A DNA stretch of 64,000 nt from Rhododendron vialii. Taxonomy: Eukaryota; Streptophyta; Magnoliopsida; Ericales; Ericaceae. Under the pieces are notes generated by a model. The model made no database searches. It was not told the DNA's origin and saw only the letters and a program-made list of their open reading frames with translations. The stretch is from contig NC_080558.1 of NCBI RefSeq assembly GCF_030253575.1, forward strand, positions 3,978,001 to 4,042,000. Reading direction: 5' to 3'. The position numbers were made by a program, and so were the translations under genes. Each line of letters starts with the position of its first letter. Position 1 is the first letter of the stretch. This document shows, one piece after another, positions 1,176-61,074 of this stretch.

Positions 1176-1632
1176 TAGGCCTGTCAATGGGCCGGATCCG
1201 ATCCGGATCCGACATGACACAATCCGATCCGGATCCGATAAGACTCAAATCCGATAGTGAGAATCCGGATCCGATCCGAAAATCCGAATCCGATCCGGAA
1301 ACTTTTTTTACTTTAAAAATTTTAGCAAAAAAAAAAATATTTTTTTCAAAAAAATTATTTTCCGAAAAAAAATTTAAAATAAAAAATAAAAATAAAAATA
1401 TAACTTCTTAAACATTTTTTTTTTCAAAATAAAAATTTTACTATTTTTTTTAAAAAAAATAAAGTTCGGATTCGAATTGATAACGGATTTAATCCGATCC
1501 GATCCGGATCCGTATTGAATTACCTGATTCGGATTATCGAATTATTGGATCGATGTTATCGGATTCGGATCCGGATCCGGATCGAATTTTTCGGATCGGA
1601 TCCGGATCGGATCCGGTCCATTGACGGACCTA
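1176..1632. mobile_element. hAT-like non-autonomous element, GATCCG-rich interior
   Basis: The element begins TAGGCCTGTCAATGG and ends CCATTGACGGACCTA, an imperfect terminal inverted repeat. It is flanked by GATACATG (1168-1175) and GATACATA (1633-1640), an 8-bp target duplication with one mismatch, as expected for hAT elements. Both arms are packed with degenerate GGATCCGATCC words facing each other around an A/T-rich centre. It has no coding capacity. Four other elements here share the same kind of ends (14761, 47392, 48413, 60118). Confidence 0.8.
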
Positions 1633-3642
1633 GATACATATACTCAACTAGACATTTGATTTCTCGTATGCAATAGTTGGGTAAATATCTCAATTTCCAT
1701 GAATAATTTATATAATAATGTCAATATATATATGCCCATCCATATTTATTCAAGCCAATTATATATGTTGAGTACTCAACGTCCAGATAAAAAAGTTTTA
1801 ATGTTCAAGGCATGTTTTAGTTTGTAAGATTGTTAACCACAAATTGACTAAATATGTGAAATAGTCTATCTGCACGTCCATTTGTGTGGAAAAAGTACTA
1901 CTCCTCCGTTGCAAGATAATTGTACGTCTTAATTGCACTGTTATCACGCTTTTGAGAAATTGTTTATATATTGCAATTTATAATATATTTGTTTAGGAGA
2001 ACTAAGAAAATTCTATCAGATTCATATGGTATAAAAATTTACTTTAAGTTAATTAATAAAAATGAGTTTTTTTAAGAGGTGCAAATAGTACAACATATAT
2101 GGACAATAATTTTGGGAGGGAGAGAGTAAGTGACTAGATGCATGATTATTGCGTGCATGTATTGATATTGGAACCTCTTTTTGTGTCCAAGCCAAACTTT
2201 TTACCATTGTGAGGATTGAACTGTCATTTCATGAGTGGCTGATTTATGAAATATTAAAATCTCACAACTACTCTTGTCAAAAAAAAAAAAAAAATCTCAC
2301 AACTACCATGGAAAGGAGATCACAAGGGGATGGAGTACTGCTTTGTAAAATTAAATGTTATAATGGACAAGTTGATGAAAGTCTCAGCCTCTTCTTCAAG
2401 GCAATATGGGAGCATTTATAGTGCGTCACATGTAGCTTAATAAAAGTACGTCTTTTATTTTTGAATGGCAAAAAAATTTTCTTTAATATTTGAAATTGTT
2501 ACAAAGACTAATAAGACAAGGAGAACGGCATCGTATTGTATCAAAGCGAACGGAATCCTTATAGCCACGCTCACAAGGTAACTACACGGGTCGTCCCTCG
2601 TTCCACCCCTGAAGGATAAAAGTATGCAATCTGGTTACATAACTGTGTAGGTACGTACTGAAAATTAGATAAAATAATTTAGCGAGATTACACATGAATC
2701 CCACAAAGAAAGCGACAGAGTACTGGAAGAGAATCTCTTCTGATATGATCTTAATTAATAATTAGTCTTCTCTCATTTAGATACATAGGCAACATTTTTA
2801 AGGCCCACTTGCAGATTAATGCATGCAGTACTTCTGACTTGAGGTGGTGGCCGTGTGTATATAAGATGTTTTTTATAATCGGATGTCCAGGTCAACTTAC
2901 GCGCACTTCGACTATCTACGGAACCTTGAAATTAACGACTGGCCAAATCCTCCAATGATTCCAAAGTTCGGAATGTTTCGGTATTTACTGCTGGGAATCT
3001 TGGGTTTCCTTTGAAAACTATTTGTTTTGATATTGCATCCAAAGACTACGACACAAATTTGAAAACATTAGAAAACGCACTCGATCAATCTGTGGTCCAT
3101 TTTCAAAGGTATAGACTGGGACAAACGGGTATCTGTCCATGTTCATTTGACCACTATATTTTGTTTGTCAATTTTAATTGGCTTCAACTCGATAAGATCA
3201 GATCGATCGATGGCGAAGAGCCCGAATACTAGGCGGCGCAATTGAAAAGAATGTACATATAAACTTTCCGGTATGTTTGTTCGATGACACTACTCGTAAA
3301 AGGATTAATTAGTAGCTAGTTTAATAGGATAGGTAATCTCATACTCTATATATGGTATCGACACATTGTGAGATCAATTCCGACGCATGTTTAATCCAGA
3401 CGATAGAGATTCTGACCAAATACGTAATTCAGTGCTCATATTCGATAAACAAATGAGCCTTCAATATATGTACTTAAAATTTGATGATTCAAGCAATGAA
3501 GTTTCTTTGATGGTAGATGGTAAACGTCAATGAAGTTTCTTTGTTATTGGGTCATCTCTTTCAATGAAAGTTTCTTTGTTGGTAAATGGTAAACGTCAAT
3601 GAAGTTTCTTTGTTAACGGGTCATCTCTTTCAAAGAAGTTTC
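1633..3642. other. Intergenic DNA without recognisable gene
   Basis: Nothing coding was recognised on either strand. The short frames at 2149-2421 and 3011-3232 match no family I know and lack splice support. A half-conserved CTCCTCCGT motif near 1900 may be a decayed Stowaway end. At 3490-3640 a roughly 70-bp unit containing AATGAAGTTTCTTTG is repeated imperfectly in tandem. Confidence 0.5.
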
Positions 3643-3773
3643 GAAAAATGACGACCCAGGACGTGTTTTGATAATTAAAATTCGTTAAGGATATTTTCAG
3701 CATTAATAAATATTCTCAATTTGTCCTTGGCGGATATTAATTATAAAAACATGTCATTGGCCGTTATTTTCCC
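3643..3773. mobile_element. Foldback MITE, family CGTGTTTTGATAATTAA
   Basis: A 131-bp near palindrome. The left arm carries ACGTGTTTTGATAATTAA and the right arm its complement (TTAATTATAAAAACATGT), with GAAAAATGAC / GTTATTTTCC at the tips. GAAGTTTC flanks both sides (3635-3642 and 3776-3783), a possible 8-bp duplication, although that word also recurs in the local tandem repeat. A second, closely related copy lies at 11743-11870. Confidence 0.65.
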
Positions 3774-5012
3774 ATGAAGTTTCTTGGTAAAATATAGACG
3801 TCAACGTTCAATTTAGTAAAACTGGATTCAGTTGGTATTTGTGGAATCAATATTCAAAGTCTTTTTTTGGAACATGACAAATTGCATTCAAACCCCAAAG
3901 ACCATACAAGCGATTTCATCGCATAAATAGAAATCAACCAAAAAATACTAATCACTTTTAGGCCCCAATTTTTCCTAAATTTTTGGTAATCTTTTTATTT
4001 TTATATTGTTTTTCATTTTTTTTTCCTGAATTTTTATTAGATTCATGTTATATTTTTTGGATTAATCATCTATTTTGAGAGGAGTTTAAAAAGTAAAAAA
4101 TTATGATTAAAAGCAAAAAAAATCAATGAAGACGAAAATATACCAAATAACTAATGTTTTCGGTATTTTTGTCTTCTTATATGAAAATTTTCAACTTTGT
4201 TTCATATTATTATATTTTTCTGGTTCTTCTTGTTAAAAGAAATGACTAATTTCAAAAATTACTACAAACACCTAAACTAAAAATTACAAAAAGTAAAAAG
4301 AATACTGAAAAAATACCTAACAATAAACTTAAAGAGAATGAGGCCTTTAGACACAACTAGCGATTGAACATTACGATCTGAAATGACACATACTAGAAAG
4401 TAGAGGAAAAACGAGTTAGAAGTAGAAAATGCACGTATCAAAAAAACAAGTAAAGGAGTTCCTTCGGAGACATCCGATAAAATTGGAGAGATACAGAGGA
4501 AAAGAAGTAAAGAGCAAACATCCACCGGGGTTTGAAGTCTAAAGCAACAAAAGTACGAGGGTAGTTACGAGAAATCTCACTAGAAGGAGGACTTCCATAA
4601 TCTCAGAAGTTCGAAATGAAGTCGTTCTTTTTTATGGGGGAAAAAAATCACTCTTTCGAAAAATTATTCAATGGAGCTACTTTGTTGCCGGCTCCCTAGG
4701 CGTTTGAATTTTAAAATTTTTATTTTATATATATCTGAATTTAAATATTATTAATAATTATTTGTGTATAACTATTTATTTTTAATATTAATAATTTTGA
4801 TTTAATTTGATAAAAAAATCAGTTGAAGTGACTTAAGAAAAAAACAAAATAATTGGTATATTTTAACTGTATAAGGTTAGAATCATTTCAACGTATAAAT
4901 ATAATGTATTAGAAAGCAAAAACATTATGATAAAATAAATATGGGTTTCGATAAAAAATATGTGTTTATTAAGCTGGCCCCTCCGAGTTCAAAATCTTAG
5001 CTCCGCCACTGG
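3774..5012. other. Intergenic AT-rich DNA
   Basis: No gene seen. About 3950-4270 has arms rich in poly-T and poly-A words resembling the foldback at 49772-50433, but its ends could not be fixed. The minus-strand frame at 4277-4525 is hydrophobic low-complexity sequence without homology that I recognise. Confidence 0.45.
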
Positions 5013-5149
5013 CTCCTGGGACACCGTCACATGATGTTCCAAACGTTTTTTTCACTACATATGTGTGTGTACTCATCACAAAGTGTACAAAGCTCACACA
5101 AAAATATAGCATAGAAAAATTTGGGACACCATCATGTGGTGCCCCAAGG
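5013..5149. mobile_element. Small MITE, GGTCTTGG-type family
   Basis: Terminal sequences resembling GGGACACCGTCACATGAT and, inverted, GGGGCACCACATGATGG bound about 137 bp. Related ends occur at 26468-26609 and 54990-55138, so this looks like a third short inverted-repeat family in the window. No clear target duplication was found for this copy. Confidence 0.45.
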
Positions 5150-5545
5150 GCATAAAATAATTACTTTGTTCATCCCCATTTGCCAAATATCGTACTCCAC
5201 AGTGTTTTGTTGTCCATTAATTTGATAAAAATATTTGTAAAATCTTGTGTATTGTACGTCTTTCGTTAATTTTTAAATATTTTAATTAAATTATTATTAT
5301 TTGAACAGAAGTACGCTATATATATATATATATATTAAAAATAATAAGAAAAAAAACAAATCAACACGCTGTTATTGATTATTTTCATAAACTCGAATAT
5401 CATTGGTTTCGTGGACGTGTTAAGCAACGAGTAATCTCTCCCCAACACGGCAACACGTATCACTTGTCCGGAACGAGTATACCGTGTTTACCGTGGGGTC
5501 GCGCGTACAATATCCGCAGACTAAATTTGAACGCCGGTGTGGGTC

Positions 5546-5547
5546 TT

Positions 5548-5582
<35 letters not shown>
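5546..5582 (+). promoter_or_regulatory. TATA-like box and CT-rich leader of the HRLI gene
   Basis: TTTAAATA at 5546-5553 runs directly into a CT dinucleotide tract to about 5582, some 130 nt before the start codon. A TATA-like element followed by a pyrimidine patch is common near plant transcription starts. The start site itself is not determined. The CT tract is also a microsatellite likely to vary in length. Confidence 0.4.
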
Positions 5583-5587
<5 letters not shown>

Positions 5588-5708
5588 AGTACAAAGGAAG
5601 CCCCTCGATTCACTCCTCGCATCTCTGTGCGCTGTCTCGATTCCCAGAGAGAGAGAAACACAGAGATTTTAGACAAGGGACAGGGAGAGAGGAAGAGCAG
5701 CAGCATCA

Positions 5709-12271: not shown

Positions 12272-12272
<1 letters not shown>

Positions 12273-12340: not shown

Positions 12341-12344
<4 letters not shown>

Positions 12345-13815: not shown

Positions 13816-13902
13816 CCATAAGGCAATCATAAGTCAAGTTTTTGGCATAGAATTCCATAAACTCCAGTTTCAGGCATAGAATCCCAATACCAAAGAAAGA
13901 AA

Positions 13903-16686
13903 ATGGTTAGCACTGCAGAATCTCCAATTCCAACAAGCTACGACAGAGAAAGTGAATTAAAGGCCTTTGACGCCACAAAACTTGGCGTCAAAGGCCTGGT
14001 GGATTCCGGAATTTCCCAAGTACCACGGATTTTCATCCGAACACCAGAAAATTCCCAAAACCCGCCAAATCAGGCCAAAACCCAGTTCAGCTTTCCGGTC
14101 GTAGACCTTCATAACGTCCAAAAGGATCCGATCAGACACAAGGAGGTGTTGGAAAAAGTCCGGGAGGCGGCGGAGACTTGGGGTTTTTTCCAAGTGGTGA
14201 GTCATGGGTTGAGTGAGAGTGAGATAGAGGAGATGCTGGAGGGAGTTCATGGGTTTTTTGGACAAGAAAATGAGGTGAGAAAACAGTGGTACACAAGGGA
14301 TTTGAACAGGCCATTTTTGTACAACAGTAATTTTGACTTGTATGGTGCTCCGGCGACGAATTGGAGGGATACTTTTAATTGCAGTGTGGCTCCTATGGCT
14401 CCTAATCCAGAGGATTTGCCACCACCTTGCAGGTATACAATGTAAAACTTGTACTATATACTTTTGGGTAATTCGGGTGTTCGGTCAGTTTGACTTTACA
14501 CGCGCTTACGTTTCACCTATATGTCACCTATATGTGACATTTTTGGTAATTCCGAAATATAGGTGACGTTTCGGAAAGAAAAATGATTCACGGACAGAAA
14601 ACGGCAATCACAAAATCATTTTGTTGCGGCACTTTTCTAAACTTTTAGCCGTAATAATGAATGTGTTAAGTGTTCATTTGTGTCACTGTAAATCCAATCA
14701 TGAACGTTAAATTTTGACCAAATTTTTTTCAACCAAGTGTGGATACGCGGGCACCTTGGATAGGGGTGGGTAACGTGTCGTGTTCGTCTCCTGTTTCTGT
14801 CAAAATTCTCTCAATTCTAAACCTGATCTGTTTAGCTTTTCGTATTATCATATCATGTCATATTCATGTTCCGTGTCAGAGATAACCGAACCTAACCCGC
14901 TAACTTCGTGTCTGGTTCGTGTCGTGTTATCGTGTCCTTTCATAAATTCCCACCCCATGCTGTGTCGTGCCGTGTAATCTTGTGTTTGTGTCAGAATTCT
15001 CTCAACCCTAACCTGATCTCTTTAGCTTTTCGTGTTATTGTGTCATGTCATATTTTTGTTCTGTGTCGGAAATAGCCGACCCTAACCCACAAACTTCGTG
15101 TCGGAAATTCTCACCCCTAACCTTGGATATATAGTTCAATTTCCAGTAAAAGAAAACAGAGACTCCCAGTACTAATAAATTTCTCACAGACACATTCTAC
15201 TGGAGTACTCCAAGAAAATCCAGAACTTAGGCAACACACTGTTTGAGTTACTGTCAGAGGCTCTTGGGCTCAAGCCAAACCACCTCAAAGAAATGGAGTG
15301 CACTGAAGGTCTTGTTATATTGGGCCATTACTACCCAGAATGCCCCCAGCCAGAGCTGACAATGGGCACAAGCCCACATGCTGATGATGACTTCCTCACT
15401 GTGCTGTTGCAAGATCATATTGGGGGACTCCAAGTTCTTCACCAGAATCAGTGGGTTGATGTCCCCCCGACCCCTGGTGCTCTGGTGGTCAACATTGGTG
15501 ATCTTCTACAGGCAAGTCTTTTGTGCTATACGATCCCAAAAAACTTGTAGAAAACGTATAAAAGAACGATGTGGCTAGATTGTGTGCCTATAGAGATATC
15601 AACCATTTTACAGGCACACACAAGAGTCTTGCACTCGCACTCACGTGTTCACTGTGGCCCTGGTGCAGTGTGGGGGGACTCGTACTGAATGTGTGTGCGC
15701 GCGCGCGCTCATACTAGCATTTCTCTTAAGATACATCTATACCACATCATTCAGGTGAAACACTCAGTAAAAAGTAAGATTCTGAAAAAGAATAACTATT
15801 TCCTTCATCCATTGGTAAAACGAACAAAGCTAATTAAGGCTTGAGTTGTGTCTCGAATGCTAAAAGTTCGTTTGAGATTGACAATTTAGTTTTTATAAGC
15901 CAAACTTGAACACATTTTGAAGCTTCTTAATTTTCTGAAATTGGCACAAAGCTGTCTCAATAGCTTTGTAAAATGGACTTCCAAGTTACTCAGGTTGTTT
16001 GTGATCGGCTTAACTGAAATTCGTTAGAGATTGGCTTTAAAGATGGACAAGACATTTTTGAAAGGTTAGTTAAGTTTCAAATCTAGCCACTCACTGCTCG
16101 GCTCGGCTCTCCTTGCCTATAGACCAAATCATAGCGCATCATAAAGATTTAAAAATGGTATGCTATGCTTTTGGCTTGAGGTCTTTATCTGCAATAAAAT
16201 CATCAATAACAGATTATAATGTTCTTCGAAAAGTTACTTAACTCCTTGCATCTTTGAATTCAAAGTTCATTATGGAATTCAAGTTCTATACAAGTAGGTG
16301 ATCAAGTCTAAACTATGCAACATTAAGGCATTTAACATATCCTGTTGGCAACTTTTTAAGATGAAAAATGGAACATCGTCTTCTGAAGTAGCTGTAATTG
16401 TGATTTGACATTGTTCATCATTTGAATCCTTCAGCTTGTGTCAAACGACAAGTTCAAAAGCGTTGAGCACAGAGTTCTAGCAAACCGCGTCGGTCCAAGA
16501 GTGTCAGTGGCATTCTTTTTCACCACAGGAAGGATGGCCCCTTCAAGGTTGTATGGACCCATTAAGGAGTTGTTATCAGAAGAGAATCCCCCAAAGTACA
16601 GGGAAACTACAACAGCAGAGTATTCATCCTACTTGATGGCCAAAGGACTTGGTGGAACTCCTGCACTGTTGAATTTCAGGCTCTAA
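13903..16686 (+). CDS. 2-oxoglutarate/Fe(II)-dependent dioxygenase, ACC-oxidase-homolog type, copy A
   Basis: Exons 13903-14432, 15190-15511 and 16435-16686 join in phase to 367 residues, the usual length for ACC oxidase homologs (E8-like, DOXC class). An N-terminal DIOX_N region (about 60-165, FSFPVVDLH...[11 protein letters not shown]) precedes the catalytic double-stranded beta-helix. The iron ligands are H240 and D242 (HADDD) and H296 (VEHRV). R306 and S308 (GPRVS) form the 2-oxoglutarate-binding RxS motif. The protein is probably cytosolic; the substrate is unknown, and it is not ACC oxidase itself. Intron 1 carries an hAT-like element (14761-15119). Intron 2 starts with GC rather than GT (GCAAGT at 15512), as in copy B. 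Proteins A and B differ at about 36 of 367 positions by my count. The gene looks intact. Confidence 0.95.
14761..15119. mobile_element. hAT-like non-autonomous element in intron 1 of dioxygenase A
   Basis: It starts TAGGGGTGGGTAACGTG and ends TTCTCACCCCTA, with perfect 8-bp duplications ACCTTGGA at 14753-14760 and 15120-15127. The same intron in copy B (around 20938) holds a single ACCTTGGA, the empty site. The interior is a degenerate array of CGTGTCGTG and TTTCGTGTTAT words, repeated about twice. Confidence 0.9.
15512..15517 (+). other. GC-type 5' splice site, intron 2 of dioxygenase A
   Basis: CTACAG|GCAAGT: the exon must end at 15511 for the frame to join L285 in exon 3. The intron therefore starts GC, with the rest of the donor matching consensus, as typical of GC-AG introns. 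A GT-based alternative nearby would break the conserved DLLQ-LVSND junction. Confidence 0.85.
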
Positions 16687-19805: not shown

Positions 19806-20030
19806 AGTTCATTGTATGACATTTAACTTAAAATATAGCTGCATTGATGTAACGTTTTTGCTTCATCCATTGGCAGACTGTCTTCATTCTTTCTTCTTCA
19901 GTCAAAAATGGTTGCTATCCCCATACCGTATCCTTTGATTCTAACCCATAAGGCCATCACAAGTCAAGTTTTGGCATAGAATTCCATATATCTTGTTTCA
20001 TTCATAGAATCCCAATACCCAAGAAAGAAA

Positions 20031-22611
20031 ATGGTTACCACTGCAGAACCTCTAATTCCAACAAACTACGACAGAGAAAGTGAATTAAACGCCTTCGACG
20101 CCACAAAGCTTGGCGTCAAAGGCCTAGTGGATTCCGGAATTTCCCAAGTACCACGGATTTTCGTCCGAACACCAGGAAAATCCGAAAACCCACCAAATCA
20201 GGCCAAAACCCAGTTCAGCTTTCCAGTCATAGACCTTCATGACGTCCAAAAAGATCCAATCAGGCACAAGGAGGTGTTGGAAAAAGTCCGGGAGGCAGCG
20301 GAGACGTGGGGTTTTTTCCAAGTGGTGAGTCATGGGGTGAGTGAGAGTGTGATGGAGGAGATGCTGGAGGGAGTTCATGGGTTTTTTGGACAAGAAAATG
20401 AGGTGAGAAAACAGTGGTACGCAAGGAATTTGAAGAGGCCATTTGCTTACAACAGTAATTTTGACTTGTACAGTGCTCCGGCGACGAATTGGAGGGATAC
20501 TTTTTACTGCAGTGTGGCTCCTATGGCTCCTAATCCAGAGGATTTGCCACCACCTTGCAGGTATACAATGGAAAACTTCTAATGTATACTTTTGGGTAAT
20601 CAGGTGTTCGGTCCGTTTGACTTTACGCGCACTTACATTTTACCTATATATCATGAAGTTACAGATGATGGATCGGATGAAGTAATTTCTGTATTGAATA
20701 TAATCAGAAATCAAAGATTTTACATTTAAAATGCCATCAGAAATAATGTCGCGGTGATGTTTCGGAAGCAAAAATGATTCGTGGACAGAAAACGGCACCA
20801 CAAAATCATTTTGTAGCGGCACTTTTTAAAACTTTTAGCCGTACTACTGAATCTGTTAGTGTTACATTTGTGTCGCTGAACATCTGATGAATGCTAATTT
20901 TGACCGAACTTTTTTAACCAAGCGTTCATATGCGGGCACCTTGGATATATAATTCAATTCGATATTGATATCCGGTCAAATAAATACACAGACTAGGTAT
21001 AATGAGTTTTGTAAATGTTTGCACATCTGCACAAGCTCCTAGTACTAATCAATTTTCCCACAGACACATTCTCTTGGAGTACTCCAAGGAAATCCAGAGC
21101 TTAGGCAACACACTGTTTGAGTTACTGGCAGAGGGTCTTGGGCTCAACCCAAACCACCTCAAAGAAATGGGGTGCACTGAAGGTCTTGTTATATTAGGCC
21201 ATTGCTACCCAGAATGCCCCCAGCCAGAGTTGACAATGGGCACAAGCCAACATGCTGATGATGACTTCCTCACTGTGCTGTTGCAAGATCATATTGGGGG
21301 ACTCCAAGTTCTTCACCAGAATCAGTGGGTTGATGTCCCCCCTACCCCTGGTGCTCTGGTGGTCAACATTGGTGATCTTCTACAGGCAAGTCTTTCGTGC
21401 TACACGATCCAAATAAACTTATACTCCAGTAAACGTATAAAAAAGAACGATGTGGCAAGATAGTAGCCAATTGAAGCCTACCATTTTAAAAGAAAAAACC
21501 TATAGAGATATCAACCATTTTACAGGCACACACAAGAGTCTTGCACTCGTACTCACGTGTTCACCACGGCCCTGGTGCAGGGTGGGGGAACTCATAGTGA
21601 ACGTGATGCGCACCTATGTGTCACACTAGCATTTCTCTTAAGATACATCTATAGTCTATACCACATCACGCAGATGAACATTCAGTAGAAAGTAAGATTC
21701 CGAAAAAGAATAACTATTTCCTTCATGGTAAAAGGAACCAAGCTACTTAAGGCTTGAGTTGTGTCGCGAATGCTAAAAGTTAGTTTGAGATTGACTTTTT
21801 TATGTTATAAGCTAAACTTGAATAAAATTTGAAGCTTCTTAATTTTCTGAAATTGGCACAAAGCTGTCTCAATAGCTTTTATGTAGTCCACATAAATGGA
21901 ACACCAAGTTACTTAGGTTGTTTGTGATCGGCTTAACTGAAATTCGTTAGAGAATGGCTTTGAAGATGAACAAGCCATTTTTTGAAAGGTTAGTTAAGTT
22001 TTCAAATCTAGCCGCTCACTGCTCGGCTCGGATCTCCTTGCCTTTAGACCTAATCATAGAGCATTGCAAAAAATTTTAAATGGTTTAGCTATGCTTTTGG
22101 CTTGAGGTCTTTATCTGCAATAAAATCATCAATAACAGATTATAATGTTCTTCAAAAGTTACTTAACTCCTTGCATCTTTGAATTCAACGTTCATTATGG
22201 GATTCAAGTTCTATACAAGTAGGAAAGCAAGACCAAACTTTGCAACAATAAGGCATTTAACATATTTTGTTGGCAACTTTTTAAGATAAAAAATGGAACA
22301 TCGTCTTCTGAAGTAGCTGCAATTGTGATTTGACATTGTTCATTATTTGAATCCTTCAGCTTGTGTCAAACGACAAGTTCAAAAGCGTTGAGCATAGAGT
22401 TCTAGCAAACCGCGTCGGTCCAAGAGTGTCAGTGGCATCCTTTTTCACCCCAAGAAGGATGGCCCCGCCAAGGGTGTATGGACCCATTAAGGAGTTGTCA
22501 TCAGAAGAGAATCCCCCAAAGTACCGGGAAACTACAGCAGCAGAATATTCATCCTACTTGATGGCCAAGGGACTTGATGGAACTCCTGCACTGTTGAATT
22601 TCAGGCTCTAA
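20031..22611 (+). CDS. 2-oxoglutarate/Fe(II)-dependent dioxygenase, ACC-oxidase-homolog type, copy B
   Basis: Exons 20031-20560, 21064-21385 and 22360-22611 have exactly the lengths of copy A (530, 322 and 252 nt) and give 367 residues. The iron ligands H240, D242 and H296 and the R306/S308 cosubstrate motif are kept. Notable changes from A are Y224C and P239Q next to the active-site elements, and FFTTGRM to FFTPRRM after the RxS motif. Substrate preference may therefore differ, which is inference. Intron 2 again begins GCAAGT (21386). Upstream, this copy alone has a foldback and a CACGTG-bearing MITE and lacks the ATATAT core of A's candidate TATA box, so regulation may have diverged. The gene looks intact. 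Confidence 0.95.
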
Positions 22612-24646: not shown

Positions 24647-26067
24647 GATGGATGCTAAGGAAGAAATGGTGCTTTTAAAACCTCATTTACCAAACAAACA
24701 GAGTTGTTCAATGCTGGGATAAATGCGTTTAGCTACGGTTAGCTATGTAGCAGGGACAAAGACACAGGGAACAACAATTCTTAAAAAACGGGACACGGAC
24801 TTGGCAGGGACACATTGGATCCACCCATACAATGTAATGTAAACCTACAGGAAACTAACACAGCAATTCACCACTACGGCCTCCCACTTAAATCCCTGGG
24901 TGCTATCAAGAGGAATCGAACCCATGGCAGGCGCAGATCCACCCTTACCACTACCTTTACCACTGGGGCAACCGAGGGGCAGGTATATATATTCCCATCC
25001 TTAATTGCAAAATGTACATAGTTAAAAACTGTGTTTTCCTCGTATGTAAATCTATACATTGATACAATAACATATACACACACACGTACTCAAGAAATTT
25101 TTTAGTGCCGAGCGGGTACCACGTGGTGCCTGCTCATGCATCCGGGCCGTCCATTTCGGTTTTGGACGGCTCAGATGTGCCCGCTTGGACACTACGTCAG
25201 CCGGGTGACGTAGTACCCACCTGGCACTGAAAAATTCTCCCTCAACCATGTTCCATCGTGTCCCGTGCCAAAAAATATTAGTAAAAGCTAAGGGCGTGTC
25301 GCACATGTATTTGGGCGTGTCCTCACTAGGTCCCCATGTCCGAAACGTGAATACAACGACTTCTAAGAGTGTCGGTGCTTCAAAAGTAATCACACATTAT
25401 AACCTAAAAAACAATGATCTTCCTGTTTTATTTTCCAGGACAAAAACATAATATCCAAAGCAACAACTGATTCAGAAATCTAAGATCAAGTCTTTAAATG
25501 ACCCAGCAACTGACACTAGACAAACTCATAACATATAGCAAGAGAAATATCTGATGCAAACAGCAATAGGTGAAAAACTTAAGAGAAACGCATAATCAAA
25601 ATAGAACGAATGGATAACTGGAAACTCAAATGAATGCCCTTAACGGGTTATATATATAGCATTTGAGAGGTTTCAAATTTGAAATCTTTGTAGGACGTAA
25701 ACATTTTTTAAGTCTTAAACCTTGACCACCAGACCAATCCCCTGAGATGGTAAAACTAATGAAACCGCTAAGGGCATGAATCTGAAAAGCTCTCTTCGAT
25801 GGACTACTTTTCTTCTCACATTTTTACTCCATTAAAATGTCACTCACCATTGTCACCAAATAGTTTTGCTTTTAGGCACCAAAATTTGTTTTCAGATGAT
25901 CATCCCAAAACCATTAGTATATTGCACTATCTAGTGATACAGGGTCCAACCACATTAGACTAATAGGCAGGTCAAAGCCCATAGTTTGTAAAACAATATT
26001 GGGCTGGCAGCTCCAAAGCCCACAGCTTGTACATGTCCAACCCATGTTTTAACATAGGACATGATTC
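24647..26067. other. Intergenic DNA with retroposon fragments
   Basis: No gene recognised. About 24885-24980 contains tRNA-like A and B boxes on the minus strand (TTGCCCCAGTGGTAAAGG, GGGTTCGATTCC), probably a SINE head. About 25634-25776 is bounded by the inverted pair ATGCCCTTAACGG / CCGCTAAGGGCAT and may be a small inverted-repeat element. Confidence 0.45.
25094..25239. mobile_element. Mutator-like MITE, short copy
   Basis: Same family as 19587-19805: GAAATTTTTTAGTGCCGAGCGG at the left and the inverse of GGCACTGAAAAATTCTC at the right. CACGTG lies in the left arm (TACCACGTGG). The purine-rich middle present in longer copies is missing, leaving mainly the two arms. No clear target duplication was seen. 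Confidence 0.7.
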
Positions 26068-43496: not shown

Positions 43497-43931
43497 ATAA
43501 TTATGTTTACATCCTAAAATTCTTGTCTATATAGGCCAAGAATTTTAGGATGTAAAAACTTGTCTATATAGACCGAGAATTTTAAGATGAAATCATAAAT
43601 ATTTTAAGATGAAATTATAACTATTTTACATATGCCAAGAATTTTAGGATGAAATCATAAATATTTTACATCCCAAAATTTTTGTCTATATATGCCAAGA
43701 ATTTTAGGATGAAATCATAAGTATTTTACATCCCAAAATTCTTGTCTATATAGGCCAATAATTTTAGGATGAAATCATAAGTATTTTTAAGATGTAATCA
43801 TAAGTAATTTACATCCCAAAATTTTTGTCTATATAGGCTAAGAATTTTAGGATTAAATCATAAGTGATTTACATCCCAAAATTCTTTTCAATATAGACCG
43901 AGAATTTTATGCCGTAATCATAAGTAATTAA
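43497..43931. repeat. Tandem array of AAAATTCTTG hairpin units
   Basis: About six imperfect units of roughly 60 bp. Each contains CATCCCAAAATTCTTG, a short loop TCTATATAGGC, and the complement CAAGAATTTTAGGATG, followed by AAATCATAAGTATTTTA. Each unit can form a stem of about 16 bp. No coding sequence was seen and it has no resemblance to a plant RNA gene that I know. Confidence 0.85.
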
Positions 43932-45090: not shown

Positions 45091-45579
45091 TGTTAACAGT
45101 AAGATCATTCATCCTAAAACCAATTGGCAATGAGTGGAGAAGTTCCAGATGTTATTAAGTGATTACTCATTCAACTCCCAAGCAATGTGGGATTCATTTA
45201 CTTACCTTAACATCTCCCCTCACGTGCAGCCGTGCCGTGTTTTGAGGTCTGTCACGTGTGACCATTTTTTGGGTCTCCCAAGCAATGTGGGATTCATTTC
45301 CTTAACATCCTCCCTCACGTGCAGTCGTGTTTTGAGGTCTATCACGTGTGACCACTTTTTGGGTCCTATCATCATGCAGCCTTTTCGCTAGTCTATAATC
45401 GCGGGGTGTGGATTATGAATTTTATAAAATATGGGGTGGAACGGGCCCCGCTCTGATACCATGTGGAAGCTTTATATCCATCTCAAAACCAATTGGTAAT
45501 GAGTGGAGAGGTACCAGATATTATTAAGTGATTACCCATTTCACTCCCAAGCAATGTGGGATTCATTTCCTTAACAACA
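45091..45579 (-). mobile_element. TRIM (miniature LTR retrotransposon fossil)
   Basis: Minus-oriented, 489 bp. LTRs of about 120 bp lie at 45462-45579 (5') and 45091-45212 (3'), each starting TGTT...AAGG with ATGAATCCCACATTG inside. A primer-binding site TGGTATCAGAGC, complementary to initiator tRNA-Met, follows the 5' LTR (45461-45450). A polypurine tract GAGGGGAGA directly precedes the 3' LTR (45221-45213). Flanks GAAAG and GAAAT on the element strand are probably the 5-bp duplication. The internal region is non-coding, as expected for TRIMs, and repeats part of its own LTR/polypurine junction. It looks structurally near whole. Confidence 0.85.
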
Positions 45580-47391: not shown

Positions 47392-48033
47392 TAGGGCTGT
47401 TACTCGAAACCGGAAAATCGATCGAAACCGGAAAAATCGGACCGGATCGAATTTTTTAAACCGGTTGAATAATTTCGATCCGGTTCCGATTTATAAAATT
47501 TTATAAACCGGAAAAATAATTTCGATCCGGTTTATGTGTTTTAAAAATCGGTTGAAACCGGAACCGGTTATATATATGTATAATACATACATATATATAT
47601 ATATATATATAAAAACATAGGGGAGGAGTTGAATTATAGGTTTTTGGTTGATATTTTGTGGTGTATATTGGTCTAATAAATATATTTATTAGATAAAAAC
47701 TATTTTTATGGGCTTAATTATGTTTTTATGGATTTTTTTTTTATGTATTGGGCTCAAATTTGATCCTTTTTTGTTGGGCCCAAAAAAAAGGGTTGAATTA
47801 TAGATTTTTAGTTGATATTTTATGAGTTGAATTGTGAATTTTTTGATGTGTTGAGCAAAAAATATGGCCCATGAATGAAAACCGGATAAACCAGACCGAA
47901 ACCGGTTGAGCCGGTCGAAACCGGACCGGTTTTATCTCAACCGGTTCCGGTTTCTAAAAATCTCAAACCGGATATCAGGTTTCGACCGAAAAATACACTC
48001 AAACCGGTCGAAACCGGACCGGTATCACCCCTA
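47392..48033. mobile_element. hAT-like non-autonomous element, GAAACCGG-rich interior
   Basis: TAGGGCTGTTACTCG at the left and GGTATCACCCCTA at the right, flanked by perfect 8-bp duplications CCTTTGAC (47384-47391 and 48034-48041). Both ends are filled with CGAAACCGG / CCGGTTTCG words facing each other around an AT-rich core with a TA tract. No coding capacity. Confidence 0.9.
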
Positions 48034-48412
48034 CCTTTGACCAATTAACAAGCTTGTGATTCAATAAAAAGCTTAGAAAGTATAATGTTGTGTTTAGATT
48101 TGGATTTGAATTTTTTTTTGAAAAATAGTAGGAGTAATAAGTGGAGAGAGATAGAGAGAGAAATGTTGAAAGTAAGAGGATTCTATGGGGCATTTTTTGA
48201 AAAGCAAAGAGAATAAGGCATTAGTTTTTTGGTTTTTTTCTTGGATATCTTTAGATTCCTTTCGTCGAAACAAATTAGTAATACATAAAAAATTAATTGG
48301 CACTAAACTAACAAATGAAAAAAAAAATTGAATAAGAACAAAACCAAAAAGTTGTGATCCACAACTTGTTATGCTTAGTGGAAACACCCCCAAATTATGG
48401 GGGGCGTACAAG

Positions 48413-48576
48413 TAGGCTTGGCAATCGGACCTGCCCCGCCCCGAATGGGGGCGGGTTTTCCACCATATGAAAGGGTATAGGGTTGGGGTCAAAATTTCAA
48501 AACCCGATCGGGTTCGAGTAGAGTTCATGGTGACTATACCCCACCCTTAAACCCACCCCGAACTACCCGCCCCAAT

Positions 48577-48610
<34 letters not shown>

Positions 48611-48997
48611 GTTACATGCCCTTACATTTTTATCCATAGTAATTAAATAGGAATGGATTCATTATACATTTTAAGTTCATTTTTTGGGCTAATTCAACAT
48701 TACAATTTGCTTTAGGCTCAGGGATGGGCCTAAATTTTAAAAAAAATTACACAGCCGAGAAAAAGATCAAAAGAGTTGCAAATTTTTTTTATTCTGATTG
48801 AGAATTGGGGAAAAAAGATGAAGGACGGGACGGGGCGGGGCGGGGCGGGGTGGGTAAATCCATTAGCCAACAGGGGCGAGTACAGGGGAAATTTTCATTA
48901 CCCGATCGGGTTTCGGAATGGGGTCGGGAGAGTTCGGGAATTTTCAGGTCAGGATAGGGGTACATCAAAACCCGTCCCAGCCCGTTTGTCATTCCTA
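48413..48997. mobile_element. hAT-like non-autonomous element, GGGGC-rich interior
   Basis: TAGGCTTGGCAATCGG at the left and CGTTTGTCATTCCTA at the right, with CGTACAAG (48405-48412) and TGTACAAG (48998-49005) as the 8-bp duplication, one mismatch. Subterminal CCCGCCCC words on one side and GGGGCGGGGC words on the other flank an AT-rich core with a TA tract. Only about 380 bp from the preceding element of the same class. Confidence 0.85.
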
Positions 48998-49771
48998 TGT
49001 ACAAGCTCTAAGGGAGCATCTGATTGATGGGAAGTTTTTGCTAATAACCGAATATCCGGGTTAGTTTACACGTATTTTTAGACTACTTCGAGGACCCTGA
49101 CCTAAAGTTAACAACTAGACAAACACTCCAGTGATTTCAAAGTTGTATAATGTTTGGCATCCGTTCGATGCTAACGAAATTAGAGTGGAATAGAAGTACT
49201 TTCTACCTAACATTGCTACGCATCTCCCACTCATCTCTAAAACTCTAAAATGGAGAATAGATGCGACATATTGGATGGAGAATTTATAATTTATTTGCAC
49301 TTTTTACACTTTAAGAAAGAAATCTAGGAGGAACCTATTGTACTTATAGAGATTTTGTCTCCAAAATGGAAGTAGGGTCTCCATATTCGGAGAACCAAAG
49401 GCAATTTCGAGACCCAAGCATCTAAAAAGTACGATGAGTCCCTTCTACATTCTCTCATAAAGTGCAAAAGTTGAGAATAAATTACAAAATCTTCCTCTAA
49501 TATGCCACTATCAATTCTCCATTTTGAAATTTTAGAAATGAATTGAAGATGTTCTTAAAATAAAAAATTCATATAAAGTAGATGCGCCCCCCAACTAATA
49601 TTACTAGAAGAAGATATTGAAACGAACATCTAATGGAATATTTATAGTTGGGAATTACCGTCTCCAAATTAGAGGAAAAGTCATTTTGTATTCAAAGGCT
49701 GGGGTCTACTCCTTTTCAAAATCCAGTCCCACGAACCAAACACCACCCTTAGCTCATGTGATGATCAGGCG
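48998..49771. other. Intergenic DNA
   Basis: AT-rich, with inverted-looking words around 49190-49560 (CATCTCCCACTCATCTC, CTCCATTTTG) that may be an old foldback, but no definable ends. No gene seen. Confidence 0.4.
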
Positions 49772-50433
49772 TTTTCACTCAGTAATAAGTTGTTGACAAT
49801 AATTTTTTGTTTTTGTTCTTATTCAATTTTTTTTTTGTGTATGCTAGTTTTGCGCCAAATTTTATATATTATTGGTTAGTTTCGACGAGAAGAATTGAAG
49901 AAGTAAAAGATTATGATGTTTACACAAGTATTTTGGGAAATATTCAAGAAAATAAAAAAAAAATCAAATTTTCGGCCTTTTTCTTGAATATTTCACAAAA
50001 TATTTGTATAAAAGTCATAATTTTTTACTTTTTCGATTCATCTCATCGAGAACAATCCATATTATATACTCCCTCCGTCCTTTTTTAAGTGTCTTGCTTC
50101 ATAATTCCAACTTATTAAAAAGATATCATCATTATACCTTTCATATCAACTTTTTCTTCTACTTTTCCTACTTACACATCATCATTACACTTTTACTCAC
50201 TAATTTTTCAAAATAGAATCTACTTTTAGGAACAAAATAGACAATGCATCAACTTTTACCCATTATCTTTACAAAGTGGACGTTTATTAAGGGACAACCC
50301 AAAATGAAATACTGGACTCTAAATAAGGGACGGAGGGAGTAAAATTTTAGCGCAAAACTAACATATGCGAAATTTTTTTAAATAAAGACAAAACCAAAAA
50401 AATTATTGTCAACAGCTTATTACTTAGTGGAAA
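49772..50433. mobile_element. Foldback element interrupted by a Stowaway MITE
   Basis: Left TTCACTCAGTAATAAGTTGT and inverted right CCACTAAGTAATAAGCTGT continue into long matched arms (GTTGACAATAATTTTTT on both sides, then TTTTGCGCCAAATTTTA facing AAATTTTAGCGCAAAAC). The right arm starts just after the nested element at 50069-50339. Half copies of this family appear near 48240-48370 and 60420-60540. Confidence 0.75.
50069..50339. mobile_element. Stowaway-type MITE (Tc1/mariner)
   Basis: CTCCCTCCGTCC at the left and GGACGGAGGGAG at the right, with TA on both sides (50067-50068, 50340-50341). These are the standard Stowaway end and target. The 271-bp interior is AT-rich and non-coding. Confidence 0.92.
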
Positions 50434-50983: not shown

Positions 50984-51030
50984 CACTTGCGATCCACACA
51001 ATGTTTTAGCCAAAGAGCATATATTAATTG

Positions 51031-54403: not shown

Positions 54404-54437
54404 TTTCTCCAAATATATTCCCGTAACTCTATATAAT

Positions 54438-54565: not shown

Positions 54566-54654
54566 CGGGCACTCTTTTGTAAGCGGTAATTAATGCACTA
54601 AAAACAATAGTACATAGGAGAAACCTACAATCAAGATTGCGGATGTTAGAGAAA

Positions 54655-54875: not shown

Positions 54876-54989
54876 TACGCAACGGACTCCTGAGTTAAAA
54901 AGAAAATTCTATGGTGTCAATTCAAAACAAACTGAAAACGTTATCTAGAATTCAAAGTGAAAGATCTAGATGTGGAAAATTTCTCAGGT

Positions 54990-55138
54990 GGTCTTGGGGC
55001 ACACTATATTGCGGGGCTCCAACTCTTTTCTCCCACCACATATGTGGGACCCAATACTAACAGTAAGAACCCTCGCAAAAATTTGTGATGAAAAAAGGTA
55101 TTGGGGTATCATGTGACGGTAGCCCTAAATTTGGGGCC
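54990..55138. mobile_element. Small MITE, GGTCTTGG family
   Basis: Starts GGTCTTGGGGCACACTATAT; the inverted right end GGGCTACCGTCACATGATAC matches the left end of the 5013 copy. Non-coding. Confidence 0.5.
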
Positions 55139-55808
55139 ATAAATTTAGATGAATCGTCAACTTTGATTTTCAATTGGCACTTCTGCAGAGATTTTTTTAT
55201 TTTTAGACTCAAACCATGGCCCTACTGCAGTTAAAAAGATCTAGACTGAATCCATGGCCATAAAAATAAATTATGAACCCACTTTTCCTTTTTCTTTTTT
55301 TATATGTCTTTTTCGGACTTTCATTTTACTCAGTAATTGATGGGAAAATGACAATAACATCAAGTTTTCCCTCAGCCCAGCCCAGCCCAATAGGTTTTTT
55401 TTTTTCATCAGCAGCCCAATAGGTTAGTCCCCGATTAAATAAACAGTACAGCTAAACGGACCGACCACCCACTTATTGATGGGTATCAACGGACATGCAA
55501 GGCTCACTCTCATTTTCAGTTCGATGATTCAAGCCATTTAATAAATTTTAAAAAAAAACCTAGTGGGCCCGATTCAAAATCTGGGTAAAAAAAAATGAAA
55601 AATTAGATTGAGCACTTAGGATTGAGCTAACTTTTACAAGTCAACTCGTTTTTTTTTTAAAAATAATTAAACAAAATGATTATCTGGACTTGGAGAGGGT
55701 CCCGTGTGCCCATTGGCTTTTGGTCGATACCAATAGCAGGGTTCATAAATAAAACCATTCACGAGAGAATTTGTGACCATAATAACATTGATGATTCGGT
55801 TGTGTTCC
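55139..55808. other. Intergenic DNA upstream of the DUF2828 gene
   Basis: AT-rich, no gene. GATGATTCAAGCCATTTAATAAA near 55522 resembles the inner part of the 27441 foldback family and may be a truncated copy. Confidence 0.4.
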
Positions 55809-55819
55809 CTATTTAAATA
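55809..55819 (+). promoter_or_regulatory. TATA-like box of the DUF2828 gene
   Basis: CTATTTAAATA lies about 130 nt before the start codon, followed by TCTAGGGTTCC, whose AGGGTT core resembles a telo-box. Both are candidates only. Confidence 0.4.
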
Positions 55820-55945
55820 ACACATTCTAGGGTTCCAAAAACACATGCATACAAACTCGTACTAACATATACAAACCCCAACCCTAATTTTGCACCAAAC
55901 CCATAAAACCATCACAGAAGAAAAAGAAAAAGAAAATCTACAACA

Positions 55946-58752
55946 ATGGCAACACCGCTCCTCGGACCACCGGAGATCCGCCTCCCCATTATCACCACCA
56001 CAACCGCTACCACTGCCAATCCTCCGATGGGTTTCACAGAAAACAATTCCGCCACCTACTTGGCCACGGGAAACCCGTGCCTCGACTTCTTCTTCCACGT
56101 GGTGCCCGACACTCCACCGGAACAATTGGTGGAGAGATTGCTTAAGGCGTGGGACCACGAGGCCTTGACGTCTCTAAAACTAGTGTGCAACCTACGGGGC
56201 GTGCGCGGGACCGGGAAGTCCGACAAGGAAGGATTTTACGTGGCGGCGTTGTGGTTGCACAAGCACCACCCGAAAACCCTAGCGTGCAACGTGAAGGCCA
56301 TAGCGGAGTTCGGGTACTTCAAGGACATGTTGGAGATTCTTTACAGGTTGCTCCAAGGACCGGAGATCCGGAAGAAGGAGAAATCCGAGTGGCAGGGCAA
56401 GAAGGGAGAAGTGATGGATCGGAACCCGGGTCGGAAGAAGAGGAAGGCGACGGAGGATAAGGAGACAGTGCAGGGTTTGAGGTTGGAGAGGACGGTGGCA
56501 AGGGCCAAAAAGGCTTTTGAAAGGTATTGGATGTCTATTAATTATTTTGGATTTACTTTGCAAAACTTTTGTGCTTGTTTATTTGTTCTGATATTTTACA
56601 TATTTGACCTCACATGTATTGAAATTTTACCAAAAGAAAAGCACATCAGCTCTCTACCGGGGGAATTTTTGGATGCAAATAGGGTATTGTACATGTGGTA
56701 TCCGGCGGCCGGCAGCGCATCCGAGCCTAGATCTGAGTAGAGGAAAGGAGGAGAGAAAGTGGGAGAGAGAATGCTCAGATCTTAGCTGTCCAAAACACGT
56801 TTGGACGGCTCGAATGGGCGCTGTGGCGGTACCCAATTGACACCCAAAAATTTCTCCTGCGTCATACATGTTTGACCCAAATAACTATATATCCTCGATC
56901 CACACCTGGAATAGTACTCCTATAATTTTGTCATGTGATCAACCATAGCTAAATTAATCGAAGTCACAATTTGTCATGTGAACCATAGCTAGATTAATCT
57001 AAGTCACAATTTTGTCATGTGAACCATAGCTAAATTAATCTAGTCCCATGTTATGTTTTAACTGTCTTTGTGGAAAGAATGTGTTTTCGTTCATATTGTG
57101 GGATCCATAATGTAATATATTCACGCAAAAAATTAATTTGATTGAATATCGATAGATCAATCAAAAGTTGAATTTTAGTTTATAAACTAGACAGTTCGAT
57201 CTTGTCAAGTTAAATTATTCATGATCATCCAATTTACAAACCAAAATTTAAATTTTGATGTACCTATTAATGTCCGATGAAACTAACTTTTTTAATAAGA
57301 AGAACTAACTTTTTTAATAAGAATACTACTGTACCGGCTCTACTAGATGAATGATTTAGGTCGGCAATTAGCGTACTATGGGGCCCAAAATGATAGCGGT
57401 GAAAAATCCATTATTTTCACCACCGGTGGATCTCCTTGTTCACAAGATCAAATCTGCGCATTGTTTGTACTGTTCCTCTAATAGCAGAGTATTTTGGGTT
57501 TTTTTTTTCTTTCACCAACAGGTATAACCGCGATCCAGACTACCAGTTCTTGCATGACCGCGTGTCGGATCTCTTTGCGGAGCTTCTGAGATCCGACATG
57601 GAGTCTTACAATGCCGGGGAGCTTTGCAAAATCAGCCTCGCGGCGAAATGGTGTCCCTCTCTCGACTCCTCCTACGACCGAGCCACACTGATGTGCGAGC
57701 GTGTTGCGAGGAAAGTATTCCCGCGAGAAGAGTACATAGAGTACCAAGACATCGAAGAAGCTCACTATGCTTATAAGGTTCGAAACCGCCTCCGAAGGGA
57801 AGTACTTGTCCCTCTCCACAAGGCCCTGGAAATACCGGAAGTCTACATATGCGCAAGCAAATGGAAGTACCTCCCGTACAAACGCGTCCCCTCGGTCGCG
57901 ATGAAGCTCTACAAGAAGTTGTTCTACAAGCACGACAAGGAGCGATTCGAGGAGTATTTAGAAAATGTGAAGAGCGGGAAGAGCACAATCGCGGCCGGGG
58001 CACTGCTTCCCCACGAGATCATCAAGTCCTTGGACGACGAGACCAGTCCAGAGGTGGCGGAGCTCCAATGGAAGCGGATGGTGGACGACATGGCGAAGAA
58101 AGGCAAGTTGACGAATTGCATGGCTATTTGCGACGTATCGGGGAGCATGCAAGGGATCCCCATGGAAGTCTCTGTCGCCTTAGGGCTATTGATATCCGAG
58201 CTAAGCGAAAAGCCGTGGAGAGGGAAGCTGATAACATTCAGCGCGAACCCACAACTTCACAAGATCAAAGGCGACAGTCTTCAATCCAAGACGGAGTTTA
58301 TCCGGGATATGGACTGGGGGGTGAACACGGATTTTCAAAAGGTTTTCGACAGGATCTTGGAAGTCGCGGTGAAGGGGAAACTAAGCGAAGATGAGATGAT
58401 AAAGACGCTTTTCGTTTTCAGCGACATGGAGTTCGATCAGGCCTCGAGGACTTATAATGGCTCGGGGTATGGTCGGGCCTCGACTAAGAACTGGGAGACC
58501 GATTATACGGTGATTGAGAGGAAGTATAAGGAGAAGGGGTACGAAAAGGTGCCGGAAATAGTGTTTTGGAACTTGCGAAACTCTGTTGCCACGCTGGTGC
58601 CTAGCAAACAGAAGGGCGTGGCGCTAGTAAGCGGGTTCTCGAAGAATCTCGTGACTTTGTTTTTGGAAGGGGGAGGGATTTTGAGCCCTGAGGCTGTGAT
58701 GTTACAAGCTATTCGTGGTGAAGAATATCAGAAGCTTGCGGTGATTGATTAA
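55946..58752 (+). CDS. DUF2828 protein with vWA-like domain
   Basis: Exons 55946-56523 and 57522-58752 join in phase (FER-YNRD) to 602 residues. The N-terminal half (about 25-190: FTENNSATYLATGNPCLDFFFHVVP, LLKAWDHEALTSLKLVCNLRGVRG, a Lys/Arg-rich EIRKKEKSEWQGKK) matches the DUF2828 family, which resembles the TROVE/Ro60-type helical repeat. The C-terminal half holds a von Willebrand A-like domain starting CDVSGSM (D397-S399-S401 of a MIDAS metal site) with NTDFQKVFDRIL later. Function in plants is unknown; RNA binding by analogy with Ro60 is only a possibility. The 998-bp intron contains a Mutator-like MITE, a threefold 50-bp tandem repeat and a decayed foldback. The Arabidopsis relatives At5g43390/43400 lie beside the ERF and ETFB orthologs, as I recall. 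Confidence 0.93.
56661..56856. mobile_element. Mutator-like MITE inside the DUF2828 intron
   Basis: Left GGGAATTTTTGGATGC... with ACATGTGGTATCCGGC, a purine-rich centre (GGAGAGAAAGTGGGAGAGAG), GCTGTCCAAAACACG, and right CACCCAAAAATTTCTC. This matches the layout of 19587-19805 and 63442-63671. Target duplication not evident. Confidence 0.7.
56932..57046. repeat. Threefold tandem repeat in the DUF2828 intron
   Basis: TTTGTCATGTGAACCATAGC followed by TAAATTAATCTAAGTCACAA occurs three times with small differences, with a period of about 41-43 bp. Confidence 0.85.
57070..57400. mobile_element. Decayed foldback related to 19096-19530
   Basis: CGCAAAAAATTAATTTGATTG near 57124 and GATGTACCTATTAATGTCCG near 57255 correspond to the inner arms of the unit B foldback. 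The outer GGGCCC and ATGAATGATTTAGGTC words also recur near 57380. The arms are diverged and the ends approximate. Confidence 0.45.
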
Positions 58753-60117
58753 GGCAAAAACGGACAGAGAGTGAGAGAGAGTATGTGTAATAGAACTTGT
58801 AGAAATCAAGAATTTCAAATAGTAGTTATTACTCCAAGTTTTACCAATCCCATCGGGATTAGTCGAAGTACGAGTAAGCTAGGCCCGACACCTGGTTATC
58901 AGAAAAAAATACTTTTAGTAATGTTAGTTGGGGGAACATGTACTGCTTGCATAAATTTATTTAGCAATGTTAGGTGGAAAGTACCATTCCATGTCAGGGC
59001 CTCTTGTGATGATCTTCGGCTGATTTATGAGTGGGGTTCTCTCTGCTCTTGAAGCCTTCTCATTTTCTTGTTGGTGCTGCTCTGGTATGGTATTTCTCTC
59101 AGTCCAAATGGGATTCTCCACAGACTTTGCTGCTCTTTGGGGAAGCAATTTGGTTATGTTTTTTCACTACCTCAATCTTCACAAGAGTCCAGTTTTCCAC
59201 CTGCTGATTTGGAAGATTGGTTCTGTCTTCTGAATTATGGCCTGCCTATATATGGAATGCTAATTTTGGATCCCCTCTGTAATGGTTTAGTGTTTTGGTG
59301 TGCCTAGGCTTTGGGCACCGTTTAGTAGCTGAATCAATTTTATGAACCCTCCCTGTTTTGGGGTTCAATATTTTTTTTGGTTTCGAAAATGTTATGGACA
59401 ATCCTCTTTCGGTTTTCTCCTTGGTTGATCTGTGTTCCCATTTTCCCTTTTCTGTACCTCGTTTTAATTTTGGCACTCTATTTTTTGTTAACCGCACTTT
59501 AATATTTGTCCGTTTGTGTTTAAAATACACATGTCAAGAACACTAGATGAAAAATACTAGAAGAATGTGGTTATCAAAAGGTAAAGTGCCAAAATCATTG
59601 CTCTATTTTTATGTTTACGGAAAAAAAATACGATTCCACTCTAACTTCATTACTAAAAGAATGTAGAACCAGGACTTTATATTAATGCAGGGTACACCAC
59701 ATGGTTGTACGGCATGATTTGTATCGTCTGTTGCAGCAATTAATAGTCTAAATTTTATCTCGGTAATGGATGGCTCATGACTAAACATGCAGAAGGTGAG
59801 ATGAAATATCAATATTGATGTCGAGACAAACGACTCGGATCGCGGCACGCTATAGCAATGTAGAGCACCCCTACATTACAGAGTCATTGCATTGAGAAAG
59901 GTAGAGGATTGAATATTAGTCTATTCGTTTTCAAAATCATTCCGACAAATCAAATGTGTTAAAAGTGTGTTCGATTAACTAAAATAAGTACTTATTTTAA
60001 AATTTTATATTTTGAATTAAAGTTGATGTATTGTAAGAGTATGACTTATCTTGAAAAACAAAAAATAAATATTTAAAAAATAAAAATCTAAGTGAAACAG
60101 GGCTAAGTGGTTACATG
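58753..60117. other. 3' flank of DUF2828 gene and intergenic DNA
   Basis: The first few hundred bases are probably 3' UTR. The frames at 58771-59052 and 59027-59307 match nothing I recognise. The rest is AT-rich. Confidence 0.45.
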
Positions 60118-60780
60118 TAGGGGTGGCAAACGGGCGGATTTGGGTCAAATTGGGTAAGTTGTTAGTGGGTTGGGTTTTTAATGGGTCATTGACCCATTTA
60201 GACCCATTAACTATGAGTCTAATTACCCATACTCAACCCGACCCATTTATTTTAAAGCAAACCCGACCCGCCCATTAACCCAATTACATATATCCTAAAA
60301 GTTATGATCGAAAAATAAGAAAAGTAAAAAAAAATTATGATCAAAACTCATAAATTTTTTCAAAAAGACGAGAATAAGTAATTTTTTTGTCTTATTGATT
60401 TATTTTTGTCTTTATTCAAAAAATTATAAGTTTTGATCAATTTTTTTTACTTTTCCGATTCTTTTCGTCGAAACAAATCAATAAGTCACAAAAATTTGAC
60501 ATAAAACAAAAAAAATTTGAATAAGGACAAAAAAATAAGTCAACTTTTTTAATCCAAACCCTATGCGGGACTACCATGAGAGAAATTTATTCATAGCGGA
60601 GCACAATTTCACCGGTCCATTCGCGCAATTAATGGATGAGATGTGTTTTCAATTTTGACTGGTCAAAATAATTGTCATCGGTCACAATTGATTTTTAATC
60701 CGAACCGTTCAAAATATTTTTGGATGCGTGTGATTTAGCATAGAACAATTGAATAAAAGAAAGAAAGAGAAGGCCATGCT

Positions 60781-60818
<38 letters not shown>

Positions 60819-61074
60819 CCATACTCCTTCCCAATTGCAAAAGAGACGGGAAACCTGGTAATTAGTAAAGAGGCAAGAATTTGGTGGGTTACTTTCATTA
60901 CTCCTTAGGTCAGTTAAGTTGACCCAATTGATGCCCAATTAAGACCCAACTAATAATGGGTTAGTTGAGTTTGGACCCATTCTTACCCAACTAATAAATG
61001 AGTTGGGTTGGGTCTATTTTTTAATTGATGAGTCTGAGTTTGTTAATGGATCTGGGTTCAATTTGCCACATCTA
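60118..61074. mobile_element. hAT-like non-autonomous element, ACCCATTTA/GGGTTGG-rich interior
   Basis: TAGGGGTGGCAAACGGGC at the left and AATTTGCCACATCTA at the right, flanked by GTTACATG (60110-60117) and ATTACATG (61075-61082), 8 bp with one mismatch. The left arm repeats GGGT and GACCCATT words; the right arm repeats AACCCA/GGGTTG words. The centre contains a half copy of the 49772-type foldback and a GA microsatellite (about 60784-60814), so it is probably a composite, which explains the 957-bp length. Confidence 0.82.
60784..60814. repeat. (GA)n microsatellite
   Basis: Uninterrupted GA repeats; AAGGCCAT flanks on both sides (GAAGGCCATGCTC before, GAAGGCCATACTCC after). Confidence 0.9.

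Follow-up and report, generated by a model that had tools for sequence, protein, structure and literature searches.

The window, i.e., the entire 64,000-nucleotide stretch of Rhododendron vialii DNA that was analysed (contig NC_080558.1), contained open reading frames (ORFs) whose Pfam families included 2OG-Fe(II) oxygenase and DIOX_N as well as AP2 and a Casparian-strip domain. It also held five short hAT-like elements, E1 to E5 (Table 1). Their starts, together with a left TAGG and a right CCTA (four elements) or TCTA (one element), had been described in the original prediction and were borne out by the letters. The same was true of their 8-bp target-site duplications, a hallmark of the hAT superfamily, which were perfect in two elements and matched at 7/8 positions in three.

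Table 1. Positions of the five elements and of the empty site of E2 (TSD, target-site duplication; TIR, terminal inverted repeat).
Feature	Position in window	Strand	Description
E1, non-autonomous hAT-like, 457 bp	1176..1632	.	TSD GATACATG/GATACATA, 7/8; TIR 12/14
E2, hAT-like, 359 bp	14761..15119	.	TSD ACCTTGGA twice, 8/8; TIR 10/14
E3, hAT-like, 642 bp	47392..48033	.	TSD CCTTTGAC twice, 8/8; TIR 10/14
E4, hAT-like, 585 bp	48413..48997	.	TSD CGTACAAG/TGTACAAG, 7/8; TIR 10/14
E5, hAT-like, 957 bp	60118..61074	.	TSD GTTACATG/ATTACATG, 7/8; TIR 11/14
Empty site of E2 in tandem paralogue	20938..20945	+	Single copy of ACCTTGGA

The window was scanned for end pairs of the form (T/C)AG...CT(A/G) spanning 80–3000 bp, with a duplication of at least 7/8 and a TIR of at least 9/14. 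This yielded six pairs: the five elements (TIR 10–12/14) and a weaker one at 56680–59545 (9/14). In 40 Markov-1 simulated windows, a null without any real transposons, a TIR of at least 9/14 gave a mean of 1.3 pairs (maximum 4) and a TIR of at least 10/14 a mean of 0.4 (maximum 2). For TAGG-type pairs with a TIR of at least 10/14, the simulated mean was 0.025 (maximum 1) vs. five in the real window.

The inverted ends of the elements were imperfect. TAG was present at 10 of 10 ends, as was G at position 8, and G at position 5 occurred at 5 of 10. In the consensus of hAT TIRs, positions 2 and 5 are A and G, respectively. The occupancy of position 5, the TIRs of 10–12/14 and the duplications, which by eye shared no single consensus, are what would be expected if some of the five were non-hAT elements that also make 8-bp duplications and whose ends had converged. 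Considering TAG and the position-8 G at every end, and 8-bp duplications at all five insertions, this is very improbable. The left duplications of E1, E4 and E5 (1168–1175, 48405–48412 and 60110–60117), i.e., three of the five, had TACA(T/A)G in common, and a target preference is possible.

E2 was flanked by ORFs at 13861–14442 and 15179–15547. From their letters, these were assigned as putative exon-like parts of a 2OG-dioxygenase-like gene; the Pfam output gave the oxygenase and DIOX_N families for the window ORFs as a set, without naming individual ORFs. A tandem paralogue of this host gene (ORFs 19980–20579 and 20984–21460) had the same intron without E2. The left flank of E2 matched 20753–20945 of the paralogue at 84% over 200 columns. 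Its right flank matched 20938–20959 over the initial 22 bases (21 identical, 95%), the two matches overlapping by exactly the 8-bp duplication of E2. Beyond a differing stretch, the right-flank match picked up again at 21036 (95% over 358 columns). The empty site was established from BLAST pieces and the letters; a MAFFT alignment of both introns misplaced the right flank of E2. The paralogous intron thus holds ACCTTGGA once and no E2. Most simply, the insertion of E2 postdates the separation of the two tandem genes.

Each element was marked by recurrent short words. In E1 the word was ATCCG/GGATCC, with 37 ATCCG copies on both strands, lying within the outermost 122 and 166 bp. E3 carried AAACCGG/ACCGGT, with 27 irregularly spaced ACCGG copies in both orientations (outer 177 and 153 bp), and E5 carried GACCCA/AACCCA, with 19 ACCCA copies in both orientations (outer 165 and 190 bp). 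E4 had a mixed C-rich set (CCCCGCC and AACCCG). The word of E2 was CGTGTC, with 10 CGTGT copies, all on one strand and spread along the element, which contained an internal head-to-tail duplication (positions 14–152 vs. 206–342, 82%). In E1, E3, E4 and E5 words occurred in both orientations and formed inverted pairs. The longest start-to-start gaps between words in these four elements were 174, 317, about 260–269 and 607 bp, respectively; the word-free gaps were mostly AT-rich, with a TA run in the core of E4. The description of each interior as filled by its word was thus not upheld: in four of the five the words were subterminal, lying in the outer 120–190 bp of both arms, most weakly so in E4.

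Under uniform placement of word copies, end-closeness as extreme as observed arose in 3, 1 and 0 of 20000 draws for E1, E3 and E5, respectively, and in E4 it depended on the word chosen (CCCG 102, ACCCG 467, CCCC 419 and CCCGC 3544, each of 20000); these figures are only rough, because overlapping word copies are not independent. For E2 it arose in 16004 of 20000 draws, i.e., its CGTGT copies were not subterminal. Of 1500 random intervals matched in length and lying outside the elements, 0, 1, 0, 0 and 7 reached the word enrichment of E1 to E5, respectively, scored without AT-only words and words of period 1–3, and 0, 42, 0, 0 and 0 reached the enrichment of a word common to both arms. Subterminal repeats at both ends, as in the hAT superfamily, were therefore found in E1, E3, E4 and E5 and weakly in E2 (the 42 of 1500).

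The two arms of an element resembled each other more than those of other elements. When k-mer profiles corrected for window background were compared (k = 5 and 6; arms of 130, 160 and 175 bp), the arrangement in which every left arm is matched to the right arm of the same element ranked first of 120 pairings. Each own-arm similarity value was reached by at most 0.33% of 1811–1820 random intervals, although that of E1 is not independent evidence, since one of its arms is in part an inverted copy of the other (80% over 81 columns). No long inverted match was found between the arms of E3 or between those of E5.

The words had been described as unrelated among elements. They were not wholly so: the arm similarities of E3-left with E1-right (0.44) and E5-left with E4-right (0.36) suggest that the words of E1 and E3, and those of E4 and E5, are partly similar and may be related, although the reverse arm pairs (0.12 and 0.07, respectively) do not. 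By eye, the five words resemble variations on a single CC(C/G)-centred theme. A common core of the five top words was not significant (3.40 matches vs. 3.01, P = 0.07), and substituting the hand-picked E4 word AACCCG gave P = 0.0003 post hoc; one core common to all five would at present be only a hint. E2 also held TGTCG in five copies vs. 0.3 expected, a sequence that may resemble the DREF/ZBED1 site.

Several further repeats were noted around the elements. A word cluster of the CGTGTC type at 25256–25316, with no element around it in the end-pair scan, adjoined what by eye is an imperfect palindrome of about 130 bp at 25100–25235 (AGTGCC...GGCACT), perhaps another small inverted-repeat element. 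Stretches at 49768–49895, 50341–50433 and 60457–60532 were 71–76% alike to 48255–48388; the last lies within the core of E5, which suggests a dispersed repeat that may be nested in or captured by this element. Outside the five elements, at 43560–43929 and 45175–45365, lay tandem arrays (about 60 bp) and a 90-bp repeat in two copies. Inverted G/C-run repeats at 61352–61389 and 63331–63368 (87%) bracketed a minus-strand ORF of 320 amino acids (61815–62777) carrying a DGHCGFR stretch reminiscent of the OTU-type proteases of plant Mutator-like elements; no OTU family was among the Pfam results for the window ORFs (150 of 174 scanned).

The original prediction had offered replication slippage between inverted arms as an alternative. 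In a wider form of this alternative, the words would have no binding role and would have arisen incidentally, through replication slippage or through fold-back synthesis within the inverted arms. Tandem Repeats Finder reported tandem runs of 11, 19 and 26 bp in E1 (score threshold 50) and, at a score of 30, a CGGGG run of 5.8 copies in E4 and, in E5, a short GACCCAATTAA run (11 bp, three copies); the inverted arms of E1 would also suit fold-back synthesis. As a sole origin, slippage is disfavoured and we regard it as improbable, because the tandem word arrays are only local and none occurred in the arms of E3 at score 30, where the 27 ACCGG copies are irregularly spaced on two strands, and because both arms carry copies of one word, with long cores between them free of it. 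A partial contribution of slippage is compatible with the explanation that we favour.

CG content bears on a different possibility, that a single transposase moves all five elements through their common ends and that the arrays serve another purpose, e.g., sensing methylation or drawing silencing. Observed/expected CpG ratios were 2.68, 1.11, 1.88, 0.85 and 0.71 for E1 to E5, respectively, and 0.71 elsewhere in the window. The outer 160 bp held 10.6, 5.0, 10.0 and 6.2 CG per 100 bp in E1, E2, E3 and E4, compared to 2.7 in the window, the ends are alike across the five, and hemimethylation is described in a review as governing the binding of Ac transposase. The arms of E5 had only 1.6 CG per 100 bp, however, and a role in methylation alone would not call for a separate word family in each element, so that we consider this quite unlikely. 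A more elaborate scheme is speculative and on balance unlikely: several lineages would use a near-identical cleavage end, with BED-finger words split into mutually exclusive CG-rich and CG-poor "addresses", their divergence insulating the lineages and their CG content tuning the response to methylation.

Taken together, E1 to E5 are very probably non-autonomous (Ds-like or MITE-like) hAT elements of several lineages, whose arrays would be transposase binding sites multiplied in part by local slippage. The hAT identity and the binding-site arrays, both part of the original prediction, fit the 8-bp duplications, the TAG(G) ends, the empty site of E2 and the words in both arms; as a whole, that prediction was partly confirmed in its observations and partly supported in its interpretation, and its proposal of a different transposase for each word is plausible. 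Under this explanation, an Ac-type transposase would use its conserved catalytic part to cut the short TAGGGNTGNCAA-like end, and its N-terminal BED zinc finger would recognise the word array, with a transposase multimer binding cooperatively to several copies. The word would diverge among transposase lineages, and elements with different words would answer to different lineages; E1 and E3, and likewise E4 and E5, with their partly similar words, may depend on enzymes that are related. In E1, E4 and E5, some of the increase in site number is probably due to local tandem slippage. Against this explanation, the words of E2 are neither subterminal nor on both strands, and the clustering in E4 varies with the word. 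A transposase domain is not expected within non-autonomous elements, and the 150 of 174 window ORFs that were scanned (stop-to-stop, at least 72 amino acids, a set from which shorter or spliced pieces would escape) yielded no hAT or BED family, neither a BED finger nor a C-terminal dimerisation domain. If each word does track one transposase clade, plant genomes would hold ready-made pairs of BED fingers and words, and sequence alone could reveal the code by which hAT transposases recognise DNA.

Searches beyond the window covered sources poorly suited to plant elements. The end-plus-G pattern gave one match in viral contigs, by eye a chance one, and the longer pattern had no match in contigs of prokaryote genomes. 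None of the five families appeared by name among the literature matches listed, a coverage that leaves out most subscription journals and repeat databases. Pineapple microsatellite MITEs were weighed as a parallel for slippage and rejected, being described as likely Mutator-derived and targeting TA repeats.

Among known systems, Ac/Ds of maize resembles the five elements in its (C/T)AGGG-type 11-bp end, its 8-bp duplication and its short repeats in the outermost 200 bp or so at both ends (PMC3260210). Ac, whose transposase shows cooperative binding to AAACGG repeats, requires about 200 bp of both ends (PMC3260210). The elements differ in that their ends continue TG-CAA-like, vs. TAGGGATGAAA of Ac/Ds, and in that AAACGG occurs in 0, 0, 0, 1 and 1 copies in E1 to E5, counted over whole elements, whereas at least three subterminal copies would be expected in a member of the Ac/Ds family proper. 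The motifs bound by the transposase of Tag1 of Arabidopsis, given as AAACCC and TGACCC (cited in PMC3143072), were enriched in E5 and E4: E5 had four TGACCC (0.3 expected) and three AAACCC (0.8 expected), and E4 five AAACCC (0.5 expected). Both motifs were absent from E1, E2 and E3, and the likeness to Tag1 is one of motifs. Hermes and Herves are animal elements. The site bound by Herves transposase, CGATTCAT (PMC3143072), was absent from all five, though its core GATTC occurred five times in E1 (1.0 expected). Hermes, whose BED domain binds AAGT/AAGC (PMC10368747), is like the five elements in having lineage-specific short subterminal repeats, in its case read by an N-terminal BED finger, and the inverted word pairs of E1, E3, E4 and E5 are similar to its quasi-palindromic STR1-STR2 (PMC10368747); AAGT was not enriched in E1 to E5.

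The same systems indicate that repeated words need not be bound or sufficient sites. In Hermes the much-repeated GTGGC is not the BED site, AAGT being that site, and mutation of inner sites did not dramatically lower transposition (PMC10368747). In maize, Ac excised none of the seven Ds-l elements tested that carry AAACGG hexamers, and some Ds1 elements that lack AAACGG still move (PMC3260210). The bound motifs of the left and right ends differ in Ac and Tol2 (PMC3143072), unlike the same-word arms of E1, E3, E4 and E5, and the transposases of Ac and Tag1 reportedly fail to bind their own terminal repeats (PMC3143072), while a title cited in PMC3260210 refers to a bipartite Ac domain that does. 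The left-right difference and the reported lack of binding sit uneasily with a division of labour between end and array.

Conserved ends with exchanged contents had been called an unusual pattern. This was not supported, since similar layouts with transposase-specific subterminal words have been published for hAT elements (PMC3143072) and maize Ds-l4 (486/903) combines common ends with varying filler, Ds1 being short (PMC3260210). In the account of Herves, the bound regions are stated to differ in sequence among hAT transposons, ensuring specificity (PMC3143072). E1 to E5 are thus five well-preserved examples of a pattern already described for hAT elements in general, to which the window adds one insertion most simply younger than a gene duplication.
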